From: an uncultured Caryophanales bacterium | GTDB lineage: Bacteria > Bacillota_I > Bacilli_A > RFN20 > CAG-826 | DNA: 64,000 bases | Reading direction: 5' to 3' | Assembly (NCBI GenBank): GCA_946407815.1 | Contig: CAMJPB010000001.1 | Location: 372,001 to 436,000, forward strand | Part shown: one piece after another, positions 2,813 through 16,558 of the stretch | How the letters are laid out: each line of letters starts with the position of its first letter | How positions within the stretch are numbered: the first letter of the stretch is position 1 | Notes under the pieces: generated by a model | The model's input: the letters and a program-made list of their open reading frames with translations, nothing else | The model's database searches: none | What the model was told of the DNA's origin: nothing | Position numbers and translations under genes: made by a program

Positions 2813-5800
2813 TTAGTTAATCTTTTTAACTTCGCCACCTAATAGAACAATCATTTTGACAGCCTTTAAGGAATAATCATCTAAATCAACGATGAGCTTT
2901 TTATTTAAAGATCCTCTCGCTAATAATTTGACATAAGCTACATTAGAAGAAATTAATCCTTTTTCAATTAAACTTTCTAATGTTACTTCTTCACCGTCTA
3001 AATAATTATCTGAAAGGGTGTCGATGTTAATAACTCCCTTTTTGCCCTCTTTATGATTTTCTACTTTATGAATCATGATGTATTCTTCCGCTTTTTCATC
3101 AGACATCAATTCATCAGCTTTTTCTACCGTGACAACATTTATTGGTTCTTCTTTAGGCTCAACTTTGGTTTTTACTTCTTCAATTAAACCTTTTTCATCT
3201 TTAACAGTTGCCACTTCTTCTTCATCTTCATTGTTATTAAGTTGAAGAGGAGAAACTAAATTATCAGGTTTTTCATTACTAACTACTTGATTAGCGCTGA
3301 AGTTTTCTTTATTAACACCATTATTAACTGCTGTGTTTTTTGTAGCAGCCGCTTTTTTCATTTGTTTTTTCTTTAAGAAAACCACTAATACGGCAATCCA
3401 TACCATAACCGCTAAGGCAGCAATAATATATGCAACAATAAATTGTGCATCAGCGTAATGGCTTGCATAAGCAATTAAAGTTGATAAGCCAAAGCCAAAT
3501 GAATTAACTTTAACTCCCTTACCTTTTTTAAGTCCTTTTAATAAGAAGAATAAGACGACTGCTCCACCTATTAAAGCAAGAGAGGAGACAACTAATAAGG
3601 TAGTAGAGACAGCGTTAACAGCATTACGCTTACTTTGATAGACTTGTTGAATGTTTCTAAGTCTACTAACTGCTTCTTTATCAACCATGGCTTTTTGTTC
3701 TTCAGTTAAGGCTTCATAAGATGTGACAGCATCATTAATCTTTTCTTCACTAGCGGTATCATAATCGACATCGCCAATGTTATAAATCTTATCTAAAACG
3801 TTATAAACCTTTTCAGAATTTTCAATGGCTTTTAAGGTTTCTATTGGGAACATTCCTTTTTGTTCATTAGTTAAAGCTTTATAAGCTTCTCTAGCGGCTT
3901 CGATGGCATTTTTACTATTAGCGTCATATTTAACAACATCGCCAATTCCATTGATTACATCGATGGCTTCTTGAACAGCAACGCTATTTAATAGAGTGTC
4001 GACATAATTTTCATCGAGTAATTCTTTTTGTTTATCAGTTAAAGCATCGTAAGCAGCTTTAGCTTGTTCAATTGCTTCTTTAGTTGCTTTTGAATTATTA
4101 ATTTCACCAATGTCATTAATTTTGCTTATCGTGTCAAAAGCTTTTTCAGAATTTACTAATAATGCTAAAGTTTCGGCTGGGAACATTTCTTTCTGTTCAG
4201 GAGTTAAAGCTTCATAAGCTTCTCTAGCCTCTTCGATGGCTTCTTTATCTGCAAATGTGATTCCGTCAGAAGATGGAAGCGTGACGATTGCCTCGCTTAA
4301 TGTAATCACCGCAAGAATGGATTCTGCTTCCTCAAGTTTGTTGAGTTTGTCTTGAGGGAACTGGGTTTTTTGCTCTTCGGTAAGAGCTTCATACGCCTTG
4401 CGTGCCACTTCGATAGCCTCTTTGTCGGCGGATGTAATTCCGTCAGAGGATGGAAGCACGTCGATTGCCTCACTTACCATAATCACCGCAAGAGTATTTT
4501 CCGCTTCCTTGAGCTTATTGAGTTTGTCTTGAGGGAACTGTAATTTTTGCTCCTCGGTAAGAGCCTCGTACGCATTGCGTGCCGCCTTGATAGCGTCTTT
4601 GTCGGCTGATGTTATTCCATCAGAAGATGGAAGCACGTCGATTGCCTCGCTTACCGTAATCACCGCAAGAGCATTTTCCGCTTCCTTGAGCTTGTTGAGT
4701 TTGTCTTGAGGAAACTGAGATTTTTGCTCCTCGGTAAGAGCCTCGTATGCTTTGCGTGCCGCCTCGATAGCTTCTTTGTCTGCGGTCGTAATATCTTCGG
4801 AATTTACGGGAATCTTAGCGAATTCTTCGTTGAATGTTACATAAGCAAGCGCGGTTTCCGCTTCCTCGAGTTTGTTGAGTTTGTCTTGCGGAAACTGCGA
4901 TTTTTGCTCTTCATTAAGAGCCTCGTATGCCTCGCGTGCCGCTTCAATAGCTTCTTTGTCAGAATTGGTTATCTCATCAGCGGACGCGGGAACTTTTTCG
5001 AATTCCTCGTCGAAAATCGCAATAGCGAGAGTCAATTCTGCGGCTTCAAGATTGTCGATAATCTCCTTGGAAACCTTTTTCTTTGCCTCATCGGAAAGAT
5101 CTTCGTAAGCCTTGCGTGCCGCTTTGATAGCGTCTTTATCGGCCGATGTGATTTCGTTGATTAGAGGAAGATTATTGATTGTTTCAATTACTTGATTTGA
5201 TGTTTCGATATCGTTGATTTCCTTCTCGGCAGCTTCGAGCTTGGCGAGAGTTTCAGGATCGACCTTTGCTTTTTGCTCGTTTGTAAGAGCGTCGTACGCT
5301 TTACGCGCCGCCTCTACCGCCTCCTTATTATCAATCGTGATATCATTTGGTAAACCGTCGATAACGCCTGTCGCCTCGTCGGCTTTCGCTCCGTCTTCGA
5401 GATTCTTATATTCCTCTTCGGCATCCGTGAGGACTTTAAGCGTAGCCGCGTCAACCTTTGCCTTTTCCTTGTTGGAGAGGTAATTGTACGTTTCTCGAGC
5501 CTCTTCAAGTTTTTTCTTGTACTCTTCGCTATATTCAACCGTACCAAGTTCTTCGATAAGTTTGACAAACTCCTCGGCCTTTACCGAAGAATAAACGAAG
5601 TCATGATCGGATATGCCTTCTTCGAAGACTTCTCCATCGATAGTAACACAGACGGCGTTTCCAAATTTGCCCGAACCTATGCTGTTAGGAGCGCCACTGC
5701 CGCTGACAGCCGTAACCTTTTTTGCTTTGTCGGTGATCGTGATATCTCCGGATTGGCTTCTTTCGCCTCCGCCGATACCAGCACCGCCGTCTCCGCCGGT

Positions 5801-8110
5801 CGCATTGACGACACCACCTTTGATGGTAATCGTACCGCAGTTGCCCAAGTTGTAGCCGCCGCCGATACCTGCGGAATTGACGCCGCCGATTGCGTTAATC
5901 GTGCCACCTTCGATGACAATATTTCCACACGGAATATCATATCCCGCGCCGATGCCTGTGGCATAACCATTGCTGCTGACGTCAAGAGTGCCCTTTCCAC
6001 TGATGGTAAGGGTTTTATTTTGAGGAACGTAAATACCCGGATACTTGTCTTCAAAGCCTGTTACGGTGTTTTTACCTTCGAGAATGAGTGTTGCGTCGCC
6101 CTCAAGAGTGATTCCCGCAAAGTCATAATCATGGTTGTTTTCGCCCTTGATTATCACGTCTTTGAGAGTGACGGTTGCGCCATCCGCGATTGTAACTTTG
6201 ACGTTTTCTTGAAGTTCGCCTGTGATTGTTTGACCATCATAAATGGTGATGTAATCCGTGACTTTGGAGAGGTCGACAACCTCGATAAACTCCCATTTTG
6301 CATAGAAGACTTTGTTACCTGTATCCGCGACGGTGATCTTTGTCACCGCTTCGCCTTCTAACTCTTCGTTGTCATACCAGCCCATAAAGGTATATCCGTT
6401 TCGAATTGGAACAGCCAATTCAAGACCACGGGCTTCAAGATATTTAGTCGGATAGTCTCCAGGCATTATGCCACCGTTCACGTTATATGTAACAGTATGC
6501 ACGTGATGGGCGAAAATGTGAATTTGTTTGAATACGAGAGATTTTTCGCTATATTCATCACTTATAGTGACTGTAATAGAGCCTTTAAATGCATCGAAGT
6601 CAAATGGGTATGGTGCGAAAATAATAGGCCCTGAAAAAATGTTGATGCCGTCATGGCTATATCCACCGTGATTTATATCACCCCAAGATGAAGTTATAAA
6701 CTGTTCACTGTATTCATATTCTGAAGTTATATATTCCGGTTGCGGATTATATTCATATCCATCTGCAACTACAAGATATATTCCATCATCCGGGAACAAA
6801 CCTTTTTCAAACGTAATCGTGATTGAGTGTGTTTTATCAAGCACAAATCCGTTTTCATTTGCAGTCGCCGTGACTGTGACAACCTCGCCTTTGTGCTCGG
6901 TTTCGCCTGCAGTCGGGAAGACGTCTTCAATCGTAGGCATAACAGGACGAAGTCCCCACGCAGCCCAAACTTCTACGTCGTTTGTTTCATCGGGTTGAAT
7001 GATTTCTATATAGGACTCTTCGTCAAGCGTATCGGATGTAAACCAACCATAAAACATAAACCCCGTCTTGACAGGAAAGATACTGCTTGGACCAAACAAA
7101 TCAAACATTTCGCCCTCATTGAAGGATGTCGGAGCGGAGATTCCATCTTTCCACTCACCGCCGTTGAGATGATAAGTGATATTGTGGGTGATGCGTTCCC
7201 ACTTTGCCCAGTATTCTTTGTCGCCCGAATCTTCGTTGGTGATCTCGGTCACGGCTTCGCCGTCAAACTCCGCGTTAGAGTACCAACCCGCAAAAGTGAA
7301 ATGCGGTTTCGTCACGTTGGTCGGAAGCGTCAATCCGATTGTTTCTTGGTATGTAGTGGAATACTCGCCGTTCCACTCACCCTCATTTGTGTTGTAGGTG
7401 ATATTGTGTTTGGTAAGTTCCCACTTAGCCCAAAACGTTTTGCTCCCTGTTTCGTCCGCGCCGATGGCGGTCACAGCGTTGCCCGTGAGTTCCGCATTGT
7501 CATACCACCCTAAGAAGTTATAATGGCTCTTCACTGCATTGGTGGGCAAAGTCAAACCTTGGTCGTCGAAATAATAATCAATATATTCGCCATTAAATGA
7601 GCCACCGTTCAGTTCATACGTCACGCCGTTAACAGGTATCAATTCCAGGGATACACGGTCAATCTGAACCATATCAAATGTGGTCAATATAGTTATTTTT
7701 TTGGCGTTAACGTTGGAAAATGTTACATACGTATTTTTGTCCCCACTGCCCTCTACACTAACCTCGTCACAGACATCCGATCTAACAGCCCCTGCAACTT
7801 CATAGTAATAACCAATCCTGACCTTTGCATTTTTGATTACTACGTTCCCAGATGCGGAAATGGCCATGAGTCTGTTTTCATCGATTTTCGCGCCATCCTC
7901 ATCGCCCTTGTCATTGACGTTAATCGTGACGCACCCGCTGGAATAGGACCATTGTTTTTTGTTTGTATAGATTTCAATCGTTTCTCCTTCCGCTAGCGCC
8001 GGTAAGGTCGTTGCTGGCTGGATGGCGAAAATCATCGTTAGTACCATGATTGCGGATATTAACGCCGTGAGAATAACTTTCGCCGTTCTTTTTTGTCTTG
8101 TTCGTTCCAT
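2813..8110 (-). CDS. Giant mosaic surface protein: InlB-type repeats, beta-helix, 11 helical repeats, membrane anchor, uL15-like cytosolic tail
   Basis: The ATG at 8110 is preferred because AAGGAG lies eight bases upstream; a longer frame reaches 8146 without one. The product has 1765 residues. In order: a signal peptide ending near TLPALAEG; several InlB-B/Flg_new-type repeats (GWY...AKW pattern); a glycine-rich right-handed beta-helix (IGAGY, AGIGGG rungs); eleven three-helix repeats of about 55-60 residues (pattern DKEAIEAARKAYEALTEEQK); two membrane segments; a Lys-rich and acidic linker; and a tail of about 75 residues matching the C-terminal half of ribosomal protein L15 (EEVTLESLIEKGLI ... 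GGEV). Topology puts the repeats outside and the tail inside. Bases from about 4.25 to 8.1 kb are far richer in G+C than the 3' part (line 5761-5820 has 39 of 60 G+C, line 3301-3360 has 19 of 60), so the outer part looks transferred. Role in adhesion is an inference. Confidence 0.8.
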   Translation of the reverse strand: MERTRQKRTAKVILTALISAIMVLTMIFAIQPATTLPALAEGETIEIYTNKKQWSYSSGCVTINVNDKGDEDGAKIDENRLMAISASGNVVIKNAKVRIGYYYEVAGAVRSDVCDEVSVEGSGDKNTYVTFSNVNAKKITILTTFDMVQIDRVSLELIPVNGVTYELNGGSFNGEYIDYYFDDQGLTLPTNAVKSHYNFLGWYDNAELTGNAVTAIGADETGSKTFWAKWELTKHNITYNTNEGEWNGEYSTTYQETIGLTLPTNVTKPHFTFAGWYSNAEFDGEAVTEITNEDSGDKEYWAKWERITHNITYHLNGGEWKDGISAPTSFNEGEMFDLFGPSSIFPVKTGFMFYGWFTSDTLDEESYIEIIQPDETNDVEVWAAWGLRPVMPTIEDVFPTAGETEHKGEVVTVTATANENGFVLDKTHSITITFEKGLFPDDGIYLVVADGYEYNPQPEYITSEYEYSEQFITSSWGDINHGGYSHDGINIFSGPIIFAPYPFDFDAFKGSITVTISDEYSEKSLVFKQIHIFAHHVHTVTYNVNGGIMPGDYPTKYLEARGLELAVPIRNGYTFMGWYDNEELEGEAVTKITVADTGNKVFYAKWEFIEVVDLSKVTDYITIYDGQTITGELQENVKVTIADGATVTLKDVIIKGENNHDYDFAGITLEGDATLILEGKNTVTGFEDKYPGIYVPQNKTLTISGKGTLDVSSNGYATGIGAGYDIPCGNIVIEGGTINAIGGVNSAGIGGGYNLGNCGTITIKGGVVNATGGDGGAGIGGGERSQSGDITITDKAKKVTAVSGSGAPNSIGSGKFGNAVCVTIDGEVFEEGISDHDFVYSSVKAEEFVKLIEELGTVEYSEEYKKKLEEARETYNYLSNKEKAKVDAATLKVLTDAEEEYKNLEDGAKADEATGVIDGLPNDITIDNKEAVEAARKAYDALTNEQKAKVDPETLAKLEAAEKEINDIETSNQVIETINNLPLINEITSADKDAIKAARKAYEDLSDEAKKKVSKEIIDNLEAAELTLAIAIFDEEFEKVPASADEITNSDKEAIEAAREAYEALNEEQKSQFPQDKLNKLEEAETALAYVTFNEEFAKIPVNSEDITTADKEAIEAARKAYEALTEEQKSQFPQDKLNKLKEAENALAVITVSEAIDVLPSSDGITSADKDAIKAARNAYEALTEEQKLQFPQDKLNKLKEAENTLAVIMVSEAIDVLPSSDGITSADKEAIEVARKAYEALTEEQKTQFPQDKLNKLEEAESILAVITLSEAIVTLPSSDGITFADKEAIEEAREAYEALTPEQKEMFPAETLALLVNSEKAFDTISKINDIGEINNSKATKEAIEQAKAAYDALTDKQKELLDENYVDTLLNSVAVQEAIDVINGIGDVVKYDANSKNAIEAAREAYKALTNEQKGMFPIETLKAIENSEKVYNVLDKIYNIGDVDYDTASEEKINDAVTSYEALTEEQKAMVDKEAVSRLRNIQQVYQSKRNAVNAVSTTLLVVSSLALIGGAVVLFFLLKGLKKGKGVKVNSFGFGLSTLIAYASHYADAQFIVAYIIAALAVMVWIAVLVVFLKKKQMKKAAATKNTAVNNGVNKENFSANQVVSNEKPDNLVSPLQLNNNEDEEEVATVKDEKGLIEEVKTKVEPKEEPINVVTVEKADELMSDEKAEEYIMIHKVENHKEGKKGVINIDTLSDNYLDGEEVTLESLIEKGLISSNVAYVKLLARGSLNKKLIVDLDDYSLKAVKMIVLLGGEVKKIN
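4254..4960 (-). repeat. Near-identical 177-bp tandem coding repeats
   Basis: Inside the surface-protein gene, consecutive helical repeats are almost the same at DNA level. Equivalent GATGTNATTCC sites lie at 4254, 4431 and 4608, a 177-base period (59 codons). Neighbouring copies in the same gene are much more diverged, so this block arose by recent duplication or conversion. Copy number could vary between strains. Confidence 0.85.
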
Positions 8111-8184
8111 ACTTAGCACTCCTTGTTTTGTTTTTGTTAAATACAAATTTTATGATCAATAGACCATTAGTAAACTACTTCACC

Positions 8185-10310: not shown

Positions 10311-13300
10311 TTATTTCTTAAGGATGATGCCTTTCTTTTTAAGAAGGAAGAAGACACCAACACCGATACCAGAGGCAACTGCGACTGAACCGATAACGAT
10401 ACCAGCAACAGTGCCACCATTTAATCCACCTTTACTTGGAGTATCAGGAGTGACAGGAGTATCTCCACCACCTTGAGCATCTTTCCATAATGCTTTAACA
10501 ACTATATCAGCATTAATTGTGATGGTTTCATTTGGAAGTTTTCTTTGTCCTCCAACTTCCCAAGCATCAAACATTTTGCCGGTTGGTGCAGTGAATCCAT
10601 TAGCAGGAAGAACGTATTGAGTTCCTTCATCTACTTGCAACGATTCCATAGATCCAGTACCACTATTAGCATTGAAACTAATTGTGTACATAGTTGTTGG
10701 ATTATCTAATCCTTCAGCACTAGCATCGTTTTCCCAAATTGCAATAAATGTTGTGTCGCCATTTAAGACATATGATGCACCTGCACTAATCTTTTCACCA
10801 TTAGCGGTATTAATAGCCCATTCTTTAAAGTGCTTCCCTTGAGGATTCTTAAATAAAATACTACCTTCAAGTGTAATACTGCTTGTTGCTTCAAGGTTAC
10901 TCTTAACAACATTGTTGTTACCAGAAATAGATGATGCTTCACCAGCATTATAAACGACTGTATATTGTTTTAATTCCCAAACAGCGAATAATGTGATGTC
11001 GCCTTCTAATGTAATATTTGCTTCTGGTTGAACTATCTCTCCATCCGAACTATCAATTGCCCAGTGTGAGAATTGATGATGTTCATCTGGAGCGGTAAAA
11101 CCACATACAGGAACAGCAAAATTAACGCTATGATCTAACTCTGGATTCATTGTTTCTGAACCACCATTAGCATTATAGAAAACATTATACCTATAATCAG
11201 ACCAGTTGGCAGTTACTGTCTCATCAGCGTATACGCCAATTGTATCTCCAGGGAAGAATGTATCACCATCAACATCCCAACTTGAGAAGTATTGTCCTTC
11301 TGGGGCTTCAAATTCACAATTTGGAAGAATGAATGGTCCATAAATATGTTCAACATCTTCCATCGTGCCATTTCCACCATTAGCATCAAATGTCACCATA
11401 GCACCATTTTCATAAACGGCATAGAAAGTATGTACGTTATCTACTGAGAATTTAGCTCCTGGCTCATAATCAACCGCAGAGGCTGTATCATCATCGATAG
11501 CCCAACCAACGAAGACTTGATTTGCTGGAGCTTCAAACGTTCCATATGGAAGAATAATTTCTTCGTTTTCGTTGACTAAGAGGGAATCCATTGTCCCAGT
11601 GCCTTCGCCAGCATCAAAGTTAATGGTGTATTGATCAATTTCCCCACTCTTCCAGCGAATAGTGAATGGAGTAGAACTCTTCTTTAAAATTTCACCATTG
11701 TAGATATCTAATCTAAATGTGATATTAACTGCGGATTGTTGTGGAGGAACAATATTACTGTGTGCTTCTTCAACTGTATCAATCCACACTCTTTCCCAGT
11801 TTGAACCAACTTGTTTTAATAATTCAGCATTAGCTGTAGTTGCGAAGTTACCATCCCACTGTAAAGCAACACCTTGACCAACAGGAACGGTTTGGCTAAC
11901 TGGCTCTAAAATAAATTTCCAGTCCAATGTTCTCCAAATTGCTTTAACAACGGCATCTCCATTTGGGTGAATGTCATAGAGAGGTTTCTTGGCTTCTCCA
12001 TTGACTTCCCAATGGTCAAAGGCTTTGTTTGCAGGAGCGGTAAATCCACAATAAGGAAGTGTATATGTTTGGCCATCAAAGGTAACCGGATTCATAGTTC
12101 CACTTCCACCATTTGCGTCAAATCTTATTAAATATGGGTCATAAGAAACTTTAAAGACTGCACTTTTAAGTGTTCTTTGATAACTAGATGCATCTGTGTA
12201 GACAAAATTGATACGGAAATATTGATTTCCTTCTAAAGTGAGTTTAGAGGAAGCTGGATTAATGGTTTTGGCATCCCAATCTTCTTGGTTGCCCCAACCA
12301 TTCCAACAGCTATCATTGCCCATTTCTTCGATGGAATAATCCTCAATTTTAAATCTTTGTAATCTTACTTGTTCTGGAACGAAATCAAGAGTGTAATTAT
12401 ATTTAAAGCCTTTTCCAATTTTGGTCGAACCACCAACAGGTTGTTTAATAATTGAACGACCAGGTTCTTTAACAATGATTTTTTGATTGATGTTACTAGT
12501 TTCGGTACCATTGGCATCATAGATTTTATATTCACTATTTTTTAAGCATCCTTTAAAATCAGCACCTAAATCGTCGTGAACAATATTGATTGTGGATTTT
12601 TCAATTCGTTTATACTCGTTTTCTGAAGGATATGCCCACGCCAAAGCGGCTACTGAATTAGTATCAATATTTGTTTTTTCAAAATCAATATCAACATTGC
12701 CAGATAAAGAAAGGTTACCTTGCACATAGCCATCCATGGTTGTATAAACCGTGTAATTATTAGCATCGTTTGCATGAGTATTAGATGAGTGAACACTTGT
12801 AATCTTGCCGCCATTCAAATGGGCGTTGCCCATGTTGTGAATATAAATGGCGTTACAAGATGTTTTTGTTTTGACATCACCTTTAATAGTCACGAACTGG
12901 CTATCAACATTTAATGTTCCGCCATTAACGTTAATAACAGAATTCCTAATGGATGGGGAACCACTAAACTTGAATCCAAGTGTACCTGCACCACTAATGG
13001 TGAGATTAGCACTACTACTATTCATAAAAATGAAATCGTTGATAAGCGTTTGCCCGTTTCCTCTGGATTGTTCAAAAATGCAGTTTCCCGCCAACACTAA
13101 TTCTTTAGGGCTCGTGATAGTAATATATGGAACTTGTCCATATCCTTCTGGAGCGTCAAAGATTACTTCCGGACGTGGATCAACGTCATTTCTAATGATT
13201 AGCTCATCATCAAGAATAATTCTTGAATACTGACTTCCTTCGAGTGCGCTTTTTAGGTCATTAATGTTATAAACCCTAGTTTCGCCTTCCGCGCTCATTT

Positions 13301-13397
13301 GCACTGGTTCTTTCATTGACGTTAAAGACAATACTGCGGCAGGAGCTATTGCCAACGCCAAAAGACCAGCGAAAATCAATTTGGTTAGTTTTTTCAT
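10311..13397 (-). CDS. Membrane-anchored surface protein: beta-helix plus six InlB-type repeats
   Basis: The start at 13397 (MKKLTKLIF) is preferred since AAAGGAAG lies seven bases upstream; a longer frame reaches 13436. The product has 1028 residues: a signal peptide; a right-handed parallel beta-helix of the pectate-lyase type (AGTLGF, NGGTLNV rungs); six InlB-B/Flg_new repeats of about 75 residues (FDANGGSGTMNP … HW…AIW); a Pro/Thr linker; and a C-terminal membrane helix with GGLNGGTVAGIVIGS followed by KKKGIILKK. There is no LPXTG signal; anchoring is through the membrane helix. The gene ends 100 bases after the start region of the LuxR-type membrane regulator upstream and is probably its target, since related sites precede both genes. 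An adhesion or colonisation role is an inference. Confidence 0.8.
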   Translation of the reverse strand: MKKLTKLIFAGLLALAIAPAAVLSLTSMKEPVQMSAEGETRVYNINDLKSALEGSQYSRIILDDELIIRNDVDPRPEVIFDAPEGYGQVPYITITSPKELVLAGNCIFEQSRGNGQTLINDFIFMNSSSANLTISGAGTLGFKFSGSPSIRNSVINVNGGTLNVDSQFVTIKGDVKTKTSCNAIYIHNMGNAHLNGGKITSVHSSNTHANDANNYTVYTTMDGYVQGNLSLSGNVDIDFEKTNIDTNSVAALAWAYPSENEYKRIEKSTINIVHDDLGADFKGCLKNSEYKIYDANGTETSNINQKIIVKEPGRSIIKQPVGGSTKIGKGFKYNYTLDFVPEQVRLQRFKIEDYSIEEMGNDSCWNGWGNQEDWDAKTINPASSKLTLEGNQYFRINFVYTDASSYQRTLKSAVFKVSYDPYLIRFDANGGSGTMNPVTFDGQTYTLPYCGFTAPANKAFDHWEVNGEAKKPLYDIHPNGDAVVKAIWRTLDWKFILEPVSQTVPVGQGVALQWDGNFATTANAELLKQVGSNWERVWIDTVEEAHSNIVPPQQSAVNITFRLDIYNGEILKKSSTPFTIRWKSGEIDQYTINFDAGEGTGTMDSLLVNENEEIILPYGTFEAPANQVFVGWAIDDDTASAVDYEPGAKFSVDNVHTFYAVYENGAMVTFDANGGNGTMEDVEHIYGPFILPNCEFEAPEGQYFSSWDVDGDTFFPGDTIGVYADETVTANWSDYRYNVFYNANGGSETMNPELDHSVNFAVPVCGFTAPDEHHQFSHWAIDSSDGEIVQPEANITLEGDITLFAVWELKQYTVVYNAGEASSISGNNNVVKSNLEATSSITLEGSILFKNPQGKHFKEWAINTANGEKISAGASYVLNGDTTFIAIWENDASAEGLDNPTTMYTISFNANSGTGSMESLQVDEGTQYVLPANGFTAPTGKMFDAWEVGGQRKLPNETITINADIVVKALWKDAQGGGDTPVTPDTPSKGGLNGGTVAGIVIGSVAVASGIGVGVFFLLKKKGIILKK

Positions 13398-13451
13398 AAA
13401 AACACTTCCTTTCTTTTCACACATATTTAAGCACATGCGAAAAAGAAAAAA

Positions 13452-13481
13452 TGGCTAATTCGTAATACCCATTTGGCTAAT
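13452..13481. promoter_or_regulatory. Candidate regulator sites before the surface protein gene
   Basis: TGGCTAAT occurs twice as a direct repeat, at 13452-13459 and 13474-13481, 22 bases apart (two helical turns). Between them TACCCAT(T)TGG (13466-13476) matches half of the palindrome found before the regulator gene (15348-15361). It sits about 55-85 bases above the surface-protein start. Confidence 0.5.
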
Positions 13482-13496
13482 CATATAAAATAACGG

Positions 13497-15296
13497 TTAA
13501 AACAAGTCTTTATATTTTAGAATTAATTCAAATTTATCAGCGACATGTAACTTAGAATATATGACAGTTAGGTCGCGTTTTATGGTATTTTCACTAAAAC
13601 TTAATTCATTAGCAATGTCTTTTCTTTTCTTGCCAGCGATTAATAATTCAACAACTTTCTTTTCTCTTTGTGACAAACCAGCAATATATTCAGGTCTCAT
13701 ATCTTTTTCTTCAACTTGAATTTCTTGGACGACATTCATTTTCTTGCTCTTTCTAGCAAAAACAATCACTAAAACAACTAGAATTACAATTAAAGCTCCA
13801 CCAGAAATAGAAAGAATGAGAATTAAAGTAACAGGGGCTTTGTTTTCATTTCTTGAAGGATTTGATCCACCAATATAGCGATCACCAGAATAATTTGAAA
13901 AAGCATCAGACCAATTACGATAAGTATCACATGAGACTTTTATGTCCGCTTTAGAGCCTTTGATTGGGAACAATCCATTAGAAACATTAGTAATCGAATC
14001 TTCATTAATCACTCCGTCAAGAAGAGCTTGTTCTTTCGTAGCGACATAATTGTAATCGTCAGATGTTGAATCATATGTATCACTACCGATGGCAAAGCAT
14101 CCTTTCAAAACAATATTGCCTAATTCACCTTTAGTTTGTTCCTCTTTATAAAACTTGAAAGAATTATTATCTTCGGCTTTATTTAAGCCAAATGTTGTAA
14201 AGAAGAATTGAACAAGTCCACCATTATTAGCCTGCACCCATCTTCCATATACTTCGGTGTAAAGAGGACCGCCTTGTGTCGCTTTGTTATTTAAAATTGC
14301 ACAATCAATAAACGTGGCGGGTTGACCAGCAAGAGAATGGATAGCAATACCACCACCATAAGTTGCTTCGTTATTTTTGATTGTTATATTTTTAAGAACA
14401 ATAGATTTATTGCCAGTGTAAGCTGTAGATAAACCCAATCCTCCACCATAAGTGGTTTTATTATTAACAATATAAGAATTAGTCATCTTTAATTCATTGC
14501 CGCCAAGGAAAATACCACCACCACAAAGTTGAGGATTATTTATGTTTATATCATATGGAACGAAATGATTGTCATGGACATTGACTTTATCAATTATCGC
14601 GGCTCCATTGGTAATGGAAAAACCTGCGGCTTTATAAGCATAATTCGAATAAAACTCGCAGTTCGTAATAGAAGCCTGTATTTTTACATGAGAAAGTTGA
14701 ATCGTGTCCCATGCTGAATAGTTGTTATAAATTTTGCAATTGTTAAGCGAGACAGTTTTATAATCATCGAGATTTAAATTAAGAACTTGTAGTACAGGGG
14801 CAACTTCAGAAGCGTAATTTTTAATAACACAATTATCTAATGATAAGGAAAAATAACCATTGTTGCCTTGGATACAAATATTATCTTCTCTCGTTGATCC
14901 AAATTTATCTTCAAACGATTCTGCGATTTGGAAATTAATAGATGAAGCATCAAAAGTATCATCAAGAATTAGATTTGAAAAAGAGACATCAATCTTTTCG
15001 CCAATGACTGTAGGACCAACAATATTAAAATATACATTTTTAAGATTTGATTGATTATCAATTGAATCAATGGCAACATCGTGATTAATAGTAATTGTCT
15101 CGTGGTTAAAATCTAAATCAGCGGTCAATAATGACTTTGAGCCAGATGCAAGGGCTTGCTTAAATTCTTCAACGGAACTAACTGTGATACCAGTCTTTTG
15201 AGGTTGACTTGATTCATTCTTATTACATCCGGTAACGAGAAAAGCAAGGGATGAACCCACAAACATTAAACTAATAAAGCTAGATAACTTTTTCAT
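13497..15296 (-). CDS. Membrane-tethered LuxR-type regulator with extracellular beta-helix (lipoprotein)
   Basis: A 599-residue protein with an unusual order of parts. The N-terminus is a lipoprotein signal (lipobox LVTGC). Residues about 30-470 form a right-handed beta-helix with many N-rich turns (ATYGGGIAIHS, CGGGIFLGGN), as in polymorphic surface proteins. A single membrane helix follows at about 488-514. The cytosolic end, residues 540-597, is a LuxR/GerE helix-turn-helix (GLSQREKKVVELLIAGKKRK, then SENTIKRDLTVIYSKLHV). Lipid anchor and membrane helix agree on an outside sensor and an inside DNA-binding domain. It should act as a one-component regulator at the membrane. The adjacent downstream gene encodes a beta-helix surface protein and shares a candidate binding site. 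I know no named family with this architecture. Confidence 0.85.
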   Translation of the reverse strand: MKKLSSFISLMFVGSSLAFLVTGCNKNESSQPQKTGITVSSVEEFKQALASGSKSLLTADLDFNHETITINHDVAIDSIDNQSNLKNVYFNIVGPTVIGEKIDVSFSNLILDDTFDASSINFQIAESFEDKFGSTREDNICIQGNNGYFSLSLDNCVIKNYASEVAPVLQVLNLNLDDYKTVSLNNCKIYNNYSAWDTIQLSHVKIQASITNCEFYSNYAYKAAGFSITNGAAIIDKVNVHDNHFVPYDININNPQLCGGGIFLGGNELKMTNSYIVNNKTTYGGGLGLSTAYTGNKSIVLKNITIKNNEATYGGGIAIHSLAGQPATFIDCAILNNKATQGGPLYTEVYGRWVQANNGGLVQFFFTTFGLNKAEDNNSFKFYKEEQTKGELGNIVLKGCFAIGSDTYDSTSDDYNYVATKEQALLDGVINEDSITNVSNGLFPIKGSKADIKVSCDTYRNWSDAFSNYSGDRYIGGSNPSRNENKAPVTLILILSISGGALIVILVVLVIVFARKSKKMNVVQEIQVEEKDMRPEYIAGLSQREKKVVELLIAGKKRKDIANELSFSENTIKRDLTVIYSKLHVADKFELILKYKDLF

Positions 15297-15334
15297 CTTT
15301 ATTTATTAAATAATTATTATTGGTACATCTCAAC

Positions 15335-15361
15335 GGGTATTTATTTTTACCCATATGGGTA
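15335..15361. promoter_or_regulatory. Candidate operator before the LuxR-type regulator gene
   Basis: TACCCATATGGGTA (15348-15361) is a perfect 14-base palindrome about 50 bases above the regulator start. A further GGGTAT at 15335-15340 pairs in inverted orientation with the first arm. A TACCCAT half-site recurs before the neighbouring surface gene. This fits self-regulation by a dimeric LuxR-type domain. Confidence 0.55.
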
Positions 15362-15533
15362 TCTAAAGATACATTTATCGCATTTAAAATATCTTAAATA
15401 TTAATAATCATGGAAAACTCACTAAAAATTGAGTAATTTATTTAATATTATCTTATCATTTATCTTATCATTTAGAAAATTATTATATAAAGGTGTAATT
15501 ATAAGTGTAAAGAAAATAACTAGTCTACAAAAC

Positions 15534-15652: not shown

Positions 15653-16507
15653 TTATTCTTCCTCTTCATAGTAGTATGAATAATCGATACCTTTCATAAA
15701 AATCTCTCGATTATTAATGTCGTTTGTCAAAGCGCGATTTAGCAGATCAAAGATTGGTTTTGGATTAACTGGACTATCTTTCATGGCAGATAAATAATCA
15801 TTCTTTTCAATCTTTGACCATTCGATGCATTTTTTCAGTCTTTCTTTTAAAAGCAAGTCGAGCCAAATTCTTGTTGATCTGCCATTTCCCTCCATGAACG
15901 GATGTGCAATATTCATTTCAACGTATTTATCCACTATTTTTGGGAATGTATCATCTGGCATTTTATCAATATCTTTTAATACTTGAGGTAAAAAATCACC
16001 ATTAGCAAACACAAACCCACCTTTAGAAATTGTTTTGGTTCTAATCTTACCTGCAAATGGATAAAGACCTTCAAACAAATAGGCATGAATCTTTTGCAAA
16101 GCAACAGTCTTTCCGATTTCTTCTTTTTCGATCAATTCTGTTTTATAAAAATCATAAGCTTTTTTCTTGCTTTGTTCATCAATTGGGTCAAGCAATCCTT
16201 TTATCCAATCTAGGATGGCTTTTTTATATTTAGAAGGGATAATAGTGAGCAACAGCCTAACGCCTTCTTCATTAATGACATCGGAAAGATATTTTTTACC
16301 ATCGTCAGCAAACAGCTTTAGTTGTCCACAAAACGGAGACAACTCAGAATTTCTGACCTTAACATTATTCCAATATCTTCTTGGTGAATTCGGATCAACT
16401 AAAATCGAAATGAAGTCAACAGCGGAATACCACCACATAGAATTATCGTTATCCCAAACTGCACGAACTGGTTTATTATTAAAATATCTAATTGAGTGTT
16501 TTATCAT
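15653..16507 (-). CDS. BRO-N domain fused to a Fic domain
   Basis: Residues 1-105 match the BRO-N domain of phage antirepressor-like proteins (VRAVWDNDNSMWWYSAVDFI, then QLKLFADDGKKYLSDVINEE). Residues about 115-270 are a Fic domain with the complete motif HPFMEGNGRSTR (H202 catalytic). Fic enzymes usually transfer AMP to a hydroxyl on a target protein; BRO-N may bind DNA or control expression. The start at 16507 is chosen because a TATAAT box (minus strand, 16529-16524) overlaps an upstream ATG at 16525, which would therefore not be transcribed; no ribosome site is visible at either. A 25-base inverted repeat covers the region just above that box, and an almost identical copy lies inside the gene where it encodes ELSPFCGQLK. 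It is part of the probable tRNA-Thr island. Confidence 0.85.
   Translation of the reverse strand: MIKHSIRYFNNKPVRAVWDNDNSMWWYSAVDFISILVDPNSPRRYWNNVKVRNSELSPFCGQLKLFADDGKKYLSDVINEEGVRLLLTIIPSKYKKAILDWIKGLLDPIDEQSKKKAYDFYKTELIEKEEIGKTVALQKIHAYLFEGLYPFAGKIRTKTISKGGFVFANGDFLPQVLKDIDKMPDDTFPKIVDKYVEMNIAHPFMEGNGRSTRIWLDLLLKERLKKCIEWSKIEKNDYLSAMKDSPVNPKPIFDLLNRALTNDINNREIFMKGIDYSYYYEEEE
16320..16344. repeat. Intragenic copy of the BRO-N palindrome
   Basis: AGTTGTC, 11-base centre CACAAAACGGA, GACAACT. It is 23 of 25 identical to the copy in the promoter at 16534-16558. On the minus strand it encodes ELSPFCGQLK of the BRO-N domain. Confidence 0.85.
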
Positions 16508-16519
16508 AATAATATGATA
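16500..16519. promoter_or_regulatory. Palindrome over the start codon of the BRO-N/Fic gene
   Basis: TTATCATA, four bases, TATGATAA: a 20-base inverted repeat spanning the chosen ATG. It could be an operator or a start-codon hairpin in the short leader. Confidence 0.5.
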
Positions 16520-16523
16520 ACAC

Positions 16524-16558
16524 ATTATATTTCAGTTGTCCACAAAATGAAGACAACT
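16524..16558 (-). promoter_or_regulatory. Promoter of the BRO-N/Fic gene with overlapping 25-base palindrome
   Basis: A TATAAT -10 box (minus strand, 16529-16524) is preceded by AGTTGTC N11 GACAACT (16534-16558), which covers the spacer and -35 region. A protein bound here would block transcription. The same palindrome recurs inside the gene. Confidence 0.6.

Follow-up and report, generated by a model that had tools for sequence, protein, structure and literature searches.

The window analysed here, a stretch of 64,000 nucleotides from an uncultured Caryophanales bacterium of the rumen, carries on its minus strand (13497..15296) a gene for a predicted transmembrane one-component regulator of 599 amino acids, whose parts follow one another in the order lipobox, beta-helix, one membrane helix and C-terminal GerE domain. 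Its N-terminus, MKKLSSFISLMFVGSSLAFLVTGC, includes a signal peptide (residues 1-24; 15225..15296, minus strand) with the lipobox LVTGC, which reads LNTGC in an orthologue. Residues 25-485 (13842..15224, minus strand) make up a predicted extracellular ectodomain of the right-handed parallel beta-helix type, followed by the only strongly hydrophobic segment of the protein, a putative membrane helix at residues ~488-513 (13758..13835, minus strand; helix 500-516 in the structural model) with the positive RKSKK directly after it, and, beyond a linker of about 28 residues, by a GerE/LuxR helix-turn-helix (HTH) domain (residues 541-593; 13518..13676, minus strand). This domain was detected in Pfam (PF00196) with 44 bits against a cut-off of 23.5, its HTH residues are conserved, and its PDB relatives are DesR, GerE, VpsT and LiaR; it belongs to the sole GerE protein in the examined 737 kb of the source genome (45% complete). 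The Pfam scan of the regulator yielded no receiver domain, no autoinducer-binding N-terminal domain of the LuxR quorum-sensing type and no N-terminal Trans_reg_C winged helix, the C-terminal GerE being accompanied by weak related HTH matches only. Orthologues were found in the roe deer omasum MAG RGIG4495 (L021; 77% identity over the whole protein) and in the goat reticulum MAG RGIG3315 (L022; 87% over the 230 residues available; its MAG contig, of 5.2 kb, may be wrongly binned).

The ectodomain was modelled with low confidence (mean pLDDT 45.6, against 71-82 in the GerE helices), and this low-confidence model aligned with many right-handed beta-helix proteins at Z 16-19 over 250-300 residues, the best alignments being those with RbmB (Z 19.2), AlgE4 (18.2) and PfbA (17.7). 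Foldseek gave weak beta-helix matches (best E 0.02), and Chlam_PMP beta-helix repeats score in the ectodomains of sister proteins. The architecture originally predicted, with lipid anchor, beta-helix, one membrane helix and GerE in one polypeptide, is thus borne out by the lipobox, the fold alignments of the low-confidence model, the hydrophobic segment and the Pfam score. As many of the beta-helix proteins matching the ectodomain bind polysaccharides, its predicted ligand is most likely an extracellular glycan.

Next to the regulator, on the same strand, lies the gene of a surface protein of 1028 amino acids (10311..13397, minus strand), with a signal peptide, Flg_new repeats and a C-terminal membrane helix according to its ORF and Pfam; the beta-helix fold originally ascribed to it is a putative one, its predicted structure being too poor for use (pLDDT 31). 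A further surface protein with Flg_new repeats (1777 amino acids; 2813-8146, minus strand) ends after membrane helices in a domain similar to ribosomal protein uL15 (Pfam L27A, 1.8e-9, residues 1705-1773), and a Fic adenylyltransferase with an N-terminal Bro-N domain is encoded at 15653-16525 (minus strand).

Upstream of the regulator gene, a perfect palindrome had been described, and TACCCATATGGGTA was indeed found at 15348-15361. Before the neighbour, a TACCCAT half-site flanked by repeats 22 bases apart had been described; its coordinates and spacing stand, with TGGCTAAT at 13452 and 13474, but the site at 13466, taken for a half-site, is in fact the palindrome in a 12/14 form, TAGCCAAATGGGTA. 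Both promoters display one architecture. Read on the minus strand, operator 1 (15335..15361; from pattern searches, and conserved in L021) is TACCCATATGGGTA-AAAATAAA-TACCC, that is TACCCATATGGGTA-N8-TACCC, and operator 2 (13453..13479) is TAGCCAAATGGGTA-TTACGAAT-TAGCC, that is TAGCCAAATGGGTA-N8-TAGCC. Each consists of a dyad and a third half-site at an identical 22-bp step, TASCC-N3-TGGSTA-N8-TASCC (TA[CG]CC-N3-TGG[CG]TA-N8-TA[CG]CC). A second dyad, GTATCTTTAGATAC (GTATCTWTAGATAC; 15359..15372, minus strand), overlaps operator 1 by 3 bp, with centres 11 bp apart, and is also conserved, as GTATCTATAGATAC in L021.

Each operator in the window ends directly before a weak -35-like sequence, and the distances to the -10-like boxes are similar. 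At the regulator gene, the -35-like TTGAGA (15328..15333, minus strand), proposed from the sequence and its conservation in L021, abuts the third half-site, and a putative -10-like TTTAAT (15305..15310, minus strand) lies 17 bp farther on, 8 nt before the ATG, which would make the transcript near-leaderless; at the neighbour, the putative -10-like TTAAAT (13425..13430, minus strand) is somewhat closer. The promoter scan did not list these -35/-10 pairs, TTGAGA included, and reported a better promoter ~190 bp upstream of the regulator. The leaderless look is shared by the regulator genes of the window (15296-15310), L063 and L032, in which the ATG lies 6-9 nt past a -10-like box and is preceded by no clear ribosome-binding site.

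A single palindrome or half-site is weak evidence, since the window contains 16 perfect 14-bp palindromes, a kind also present in 14% of shuffled upstream regions, and 17 copies of TACCCAT, which is why TACCCAT alone was set aside as uninformative. It is the common operator architecture, and not the single sites, that exceeds chance. The 27-bp pattern has two perfect matches in the examined part of the source genome, both at these two promoters, and did not occur in 5000 shuffled versions of the upstream region; the reversed pattern, used as a control, gave no match. Across 279 genomes of the order there were five perfect matches, every one at a copy of the module, and the three genomes with the operator are precisely those with an orthologue of the regulator. 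The next-best palindrome of the genome, TACCCATAAGGGTA, was rejected as an operator, being located inside a topoisomerase subunit gene.

Over the 80 bp directly before the regulator gene, the window and L021 are 90% identical, falling to ~30% farther out, and fourfold-degenerate codon sites are 52% identical; operator 2 is identical at 27/27 positions in the window, L021 and L022. The regulator promoter of L021 reads TACCCAAATGGGTA. The block homologous to both orthologous loci (13286..15388, minus strand; blastn 79.9%, 2105 bp) comprises operator 1, the regulator, operator 2 and the first ~37 codons of the neighbour, and between the window and L021 it breaks off sharply on both sides, upstream at 15388 and within the neighbour gene at 13286. 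The signal peptide of the neighbour is constant, while its ectodomain is unrelated between the window and L021 and its C-terminal repeats are partly conserved, as only short matching stretches beyond the block. L021 and L022, which come from two different genera, share 93.9% identity along 4.8 kb, the whole neighbour gene included. In a coarse two-gene comparison of the genome of the window with those of L021 and L022, RimO was 53-58% and ParE 58-64% identical against 77-87% for the regulator, which is absent from the other members of the window's genus; these data make transfer of the module between genera the simplest reading of the sequences. Relatives of the regulator were searched for in viral contigs, where none was found, and in plasmids, which gave unrelated GerE domains only.

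Proteins that combine a beta-helix with a single membrane helix and GerE are encoded at 11 loci (the window, L021, L022, L032, which is the same as L007, L062 to L067, and L113; contig ends truncate L022, L064 and L065). Most other matches in relatives were rejected as common response regulators, or as GerE proteins that are small or have several membrane helices. The homologues likewise have a predicted membrane helix between ectodomain and GerE, and all 11 loci adjoin surface or lipoprotein genes, in agreement with the co-occurrence originally proposed as a check. The lipid anchor holds for the protein of the window but not as a feature of the family: the lipobox is limited to the window, L021 and L062, so lipidation would not be essential.

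In another order, genome G411 (L113/L125/L130) encodes a regulator 40% identical along its full length, and TACCCAAATGGGTA recurs there 31 bp before the ATG of the adjacent giant surface-protein gene (contig ~13.1-21.7 kb), right after the preceding terminator. TASCCAWATGGSTA has no other match in 27.5 kb and none in 200 shuffles, and a TACC half-site lies 21 bp after the main site; no second copy was found in that order. The surface protein encoded there, of ~2,900 amino acids, has a cytoplasmic tail domain beyond its membrane helix. At L062 (G249), whose regulator is 22% identical, TAGCCATATGTCTA lies in the gap that separates the regulator from a divergent lipoprotein gene (1/2000 shuffles), whereas L007/L032 showed no matching site. 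The sister subfamily L063-L067 has the recognition helix TVKTHINHIY in place of TIKRDLTVIY and is without the operator motif of the window; in L066 and L067, ATCAACCC is found five times upstream of the regulator, mostly as pairs 20-21 bp apart (0/2000 shuffles), and it recurs ahead of the lipoprotein gene that follows. That half-sites vary with recognition helices points to the regulator itself as the predicted binder and makes chance or a foreign factor unlikely. The prediction of matching sites at the regulator's own and its neighbour's promoter is thus strengthened by the orthologues, the cross-order homologue and the sister subfamilies. A second, B-type regulator, L064 in the genome of L021 (G241), is 93% identical to L063 of another genus (G160), again beside lipoprotein genes, and may represent a second exchange.

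Taken together, we consider it probable, with fairly good confidence, that the protein is a transmembrane one-component transcription regulator that binds three-half-site operators and most likely activates its own and the neighbour gene. The beta-helix ectodomain, tethered by the lipidated N-terminus and the single membrane helix, would sense an extracellular ligand and control the cytoplasmic GerE domain across the membrane, signalling by dimerisation and not by proteolytic release. GerE dimers would bind one helical face of the operator before each gene, and the location of the sites strongly suggests control of both genes by the regulator. Activation is proposed because the operators end right upstream of the -35-like sequences; from there the regulator would most likely activate both promoters, its own through positive autoregulation. 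The direction of control is less certain, since the promoter scan does not confirm the boxes, and we regard activation as the likelier of the two, repression keeping a substantial minority share. The operator-to-start distance, which differs in G411, counts against this account.

The most serious of the rivals, although we would not bet on it, is a repressor, dimers of which would sit at the membrane and keep both promoters shut as long as the ligand is absent. Palindromes at a regulator's own gene are frequently repressor sites, in G411 the site lies a short way before the ATG, and the window has a better promoter upstream of operator 1; the geometry of the window operators, directly upstream of weak -35-like sequences, is nevertheless that of an activator. 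Somewhat less probable still is that regulated intramembrane proteolysis frees the GerE domain, which would then work in soluble form, in line with the resemblance of the layout of ectodomain, membrane helix and effector to anti-sigma factors and other substrates of this process; against this, the module has no protease gene, and the linker before GerE is long enough to permit action at the membrane. The original prediction had also offered the partner as a possible signal, in which case the regulator would act as a checkpoint on assembly or secretion by sensing the surface protein encoded beside it. The tight linkage, the presence of surface or lipoprotein genes beside every family member and the partial conservation of the neighbour's signal peptide and C-terminal repeats speak for it, but at orthologous loci the sensor ectodomain is 77% conserved between the window and L021 while the ectodomain of the partner has been swapped for an unrelated one, which makes partner sensing unlikely.

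The sites themselves might have another origin. With TetR- and XRE-like genes at a distance of a few kb, the sites could belong to another regulator, with the GerE domain acting elsewhere or having lost DNA binding; we hold this to be quite improbable, given that the operator occurs only in genomes with the regulator (3/279) and in differing gene contexts, that it recurs in another order beside the 40%-identical homologue, that the examined part of the genome has no other GerE protein and that the HTH residues are conserved. Least probable of all is that the intergenic repeat at 13452-13481 is merely the terminator of the regulator gene, even if GGGTA...TAGCC could pair before the T residues of TTTTTTCTTTTT and the intergenic repeat of the sister loci L065-L067 is clearly terminator-like: operator 2 folds no better than shuffles (RNA folding, z -0.76), is absent from the terminator scan, and has the same architecture as the site upstream of the regulator and as that before the G411 surface gene, where no T-tract follows.

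The DNA-binding winged helix of ToxR and CadC is N-terminal. The regulator resembles transmembrane transcription regulators (TTRs) such as ToxR, TcpP and CadC, in which one polypeptide with an extracytoplasmic sensor, a membrane helix and a DNA-binding domain acts from the membrane (PMC10269533, whose main text mentions neither GerE nor LuxR), in that the same three parts are joined in one polypeptide. Unlike in ToxR and CadC, its output domain is a C-terminal GerE and its ectodomain a large beta-helix. Among the GerE membrane regulators that have been studied by experiment, the closest are the 12-TM LuxRs DadR, HcdR and CadR of Eggerthella lenta, membrane-embedded proteins with 10-12 membrane helices and a C-terminal LuxR/GerE domain that respond to small molecules and control mostly nearby genes (PMC9734109). 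The regulator shares their C-terminal GerE but lacks the 10-12 N-terminal helices of the DadR type, having a single helix and a folded beta-helix ectodomain as its N-terminal part. Like these LuxRs, many GerE proteins from the order and class of the window (L009, L068, L114-L119, L123 and L124) span the membrane several times, with ~7 or 10-12 helices, and a literature search for single-helix GerE regulators found none. The NarL/FixJ-type response regulators (NarL, DesR, LiaR, VraR) have the GerE output domain in common with it, and the TACCCAT of the window operator fits the NarL heptamer, TACYYMT (PMC4886647). Unlike them, the regulator has neither receiver domain nor partner kinase, and its half-sites are directly adjacent (7-0-7), a third one following at 22 bp. 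In another phylum, Bacteroidota, the same order of parts occurs, with other sensor folds, in proteins that join periplasmic repeat domains through one membrane helix to GerE at the C-terminus; we know of no matching operator for them.

Regulator-target pairs of uncultured gut bacteria are seldom predictable from sequence, whereas here a sensor, a 27-bp operator and a target surface gene can be named together as a prediction, with an operator specific enough to locate every copy among hundreds of genomes. The regulator would be a minimal one-protein sensor from the outside to the DNA with a beta-helix ectodomain, and the pairs of recognition helix and operator, TIKRD with TACCCAWATGGGTA and TVKTH with ATCAACCC, offer a natural set for the study of DNA choice by GerE domains. 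More tentatively, the module may be a transferable "sense-and-display" cassette with a constant sensor, private operators and the signal peptide as a dock, through which unrelated surface ectodomains are exchanged between rumen genera; if so, new surface proteins would fall at once under the same external cue.
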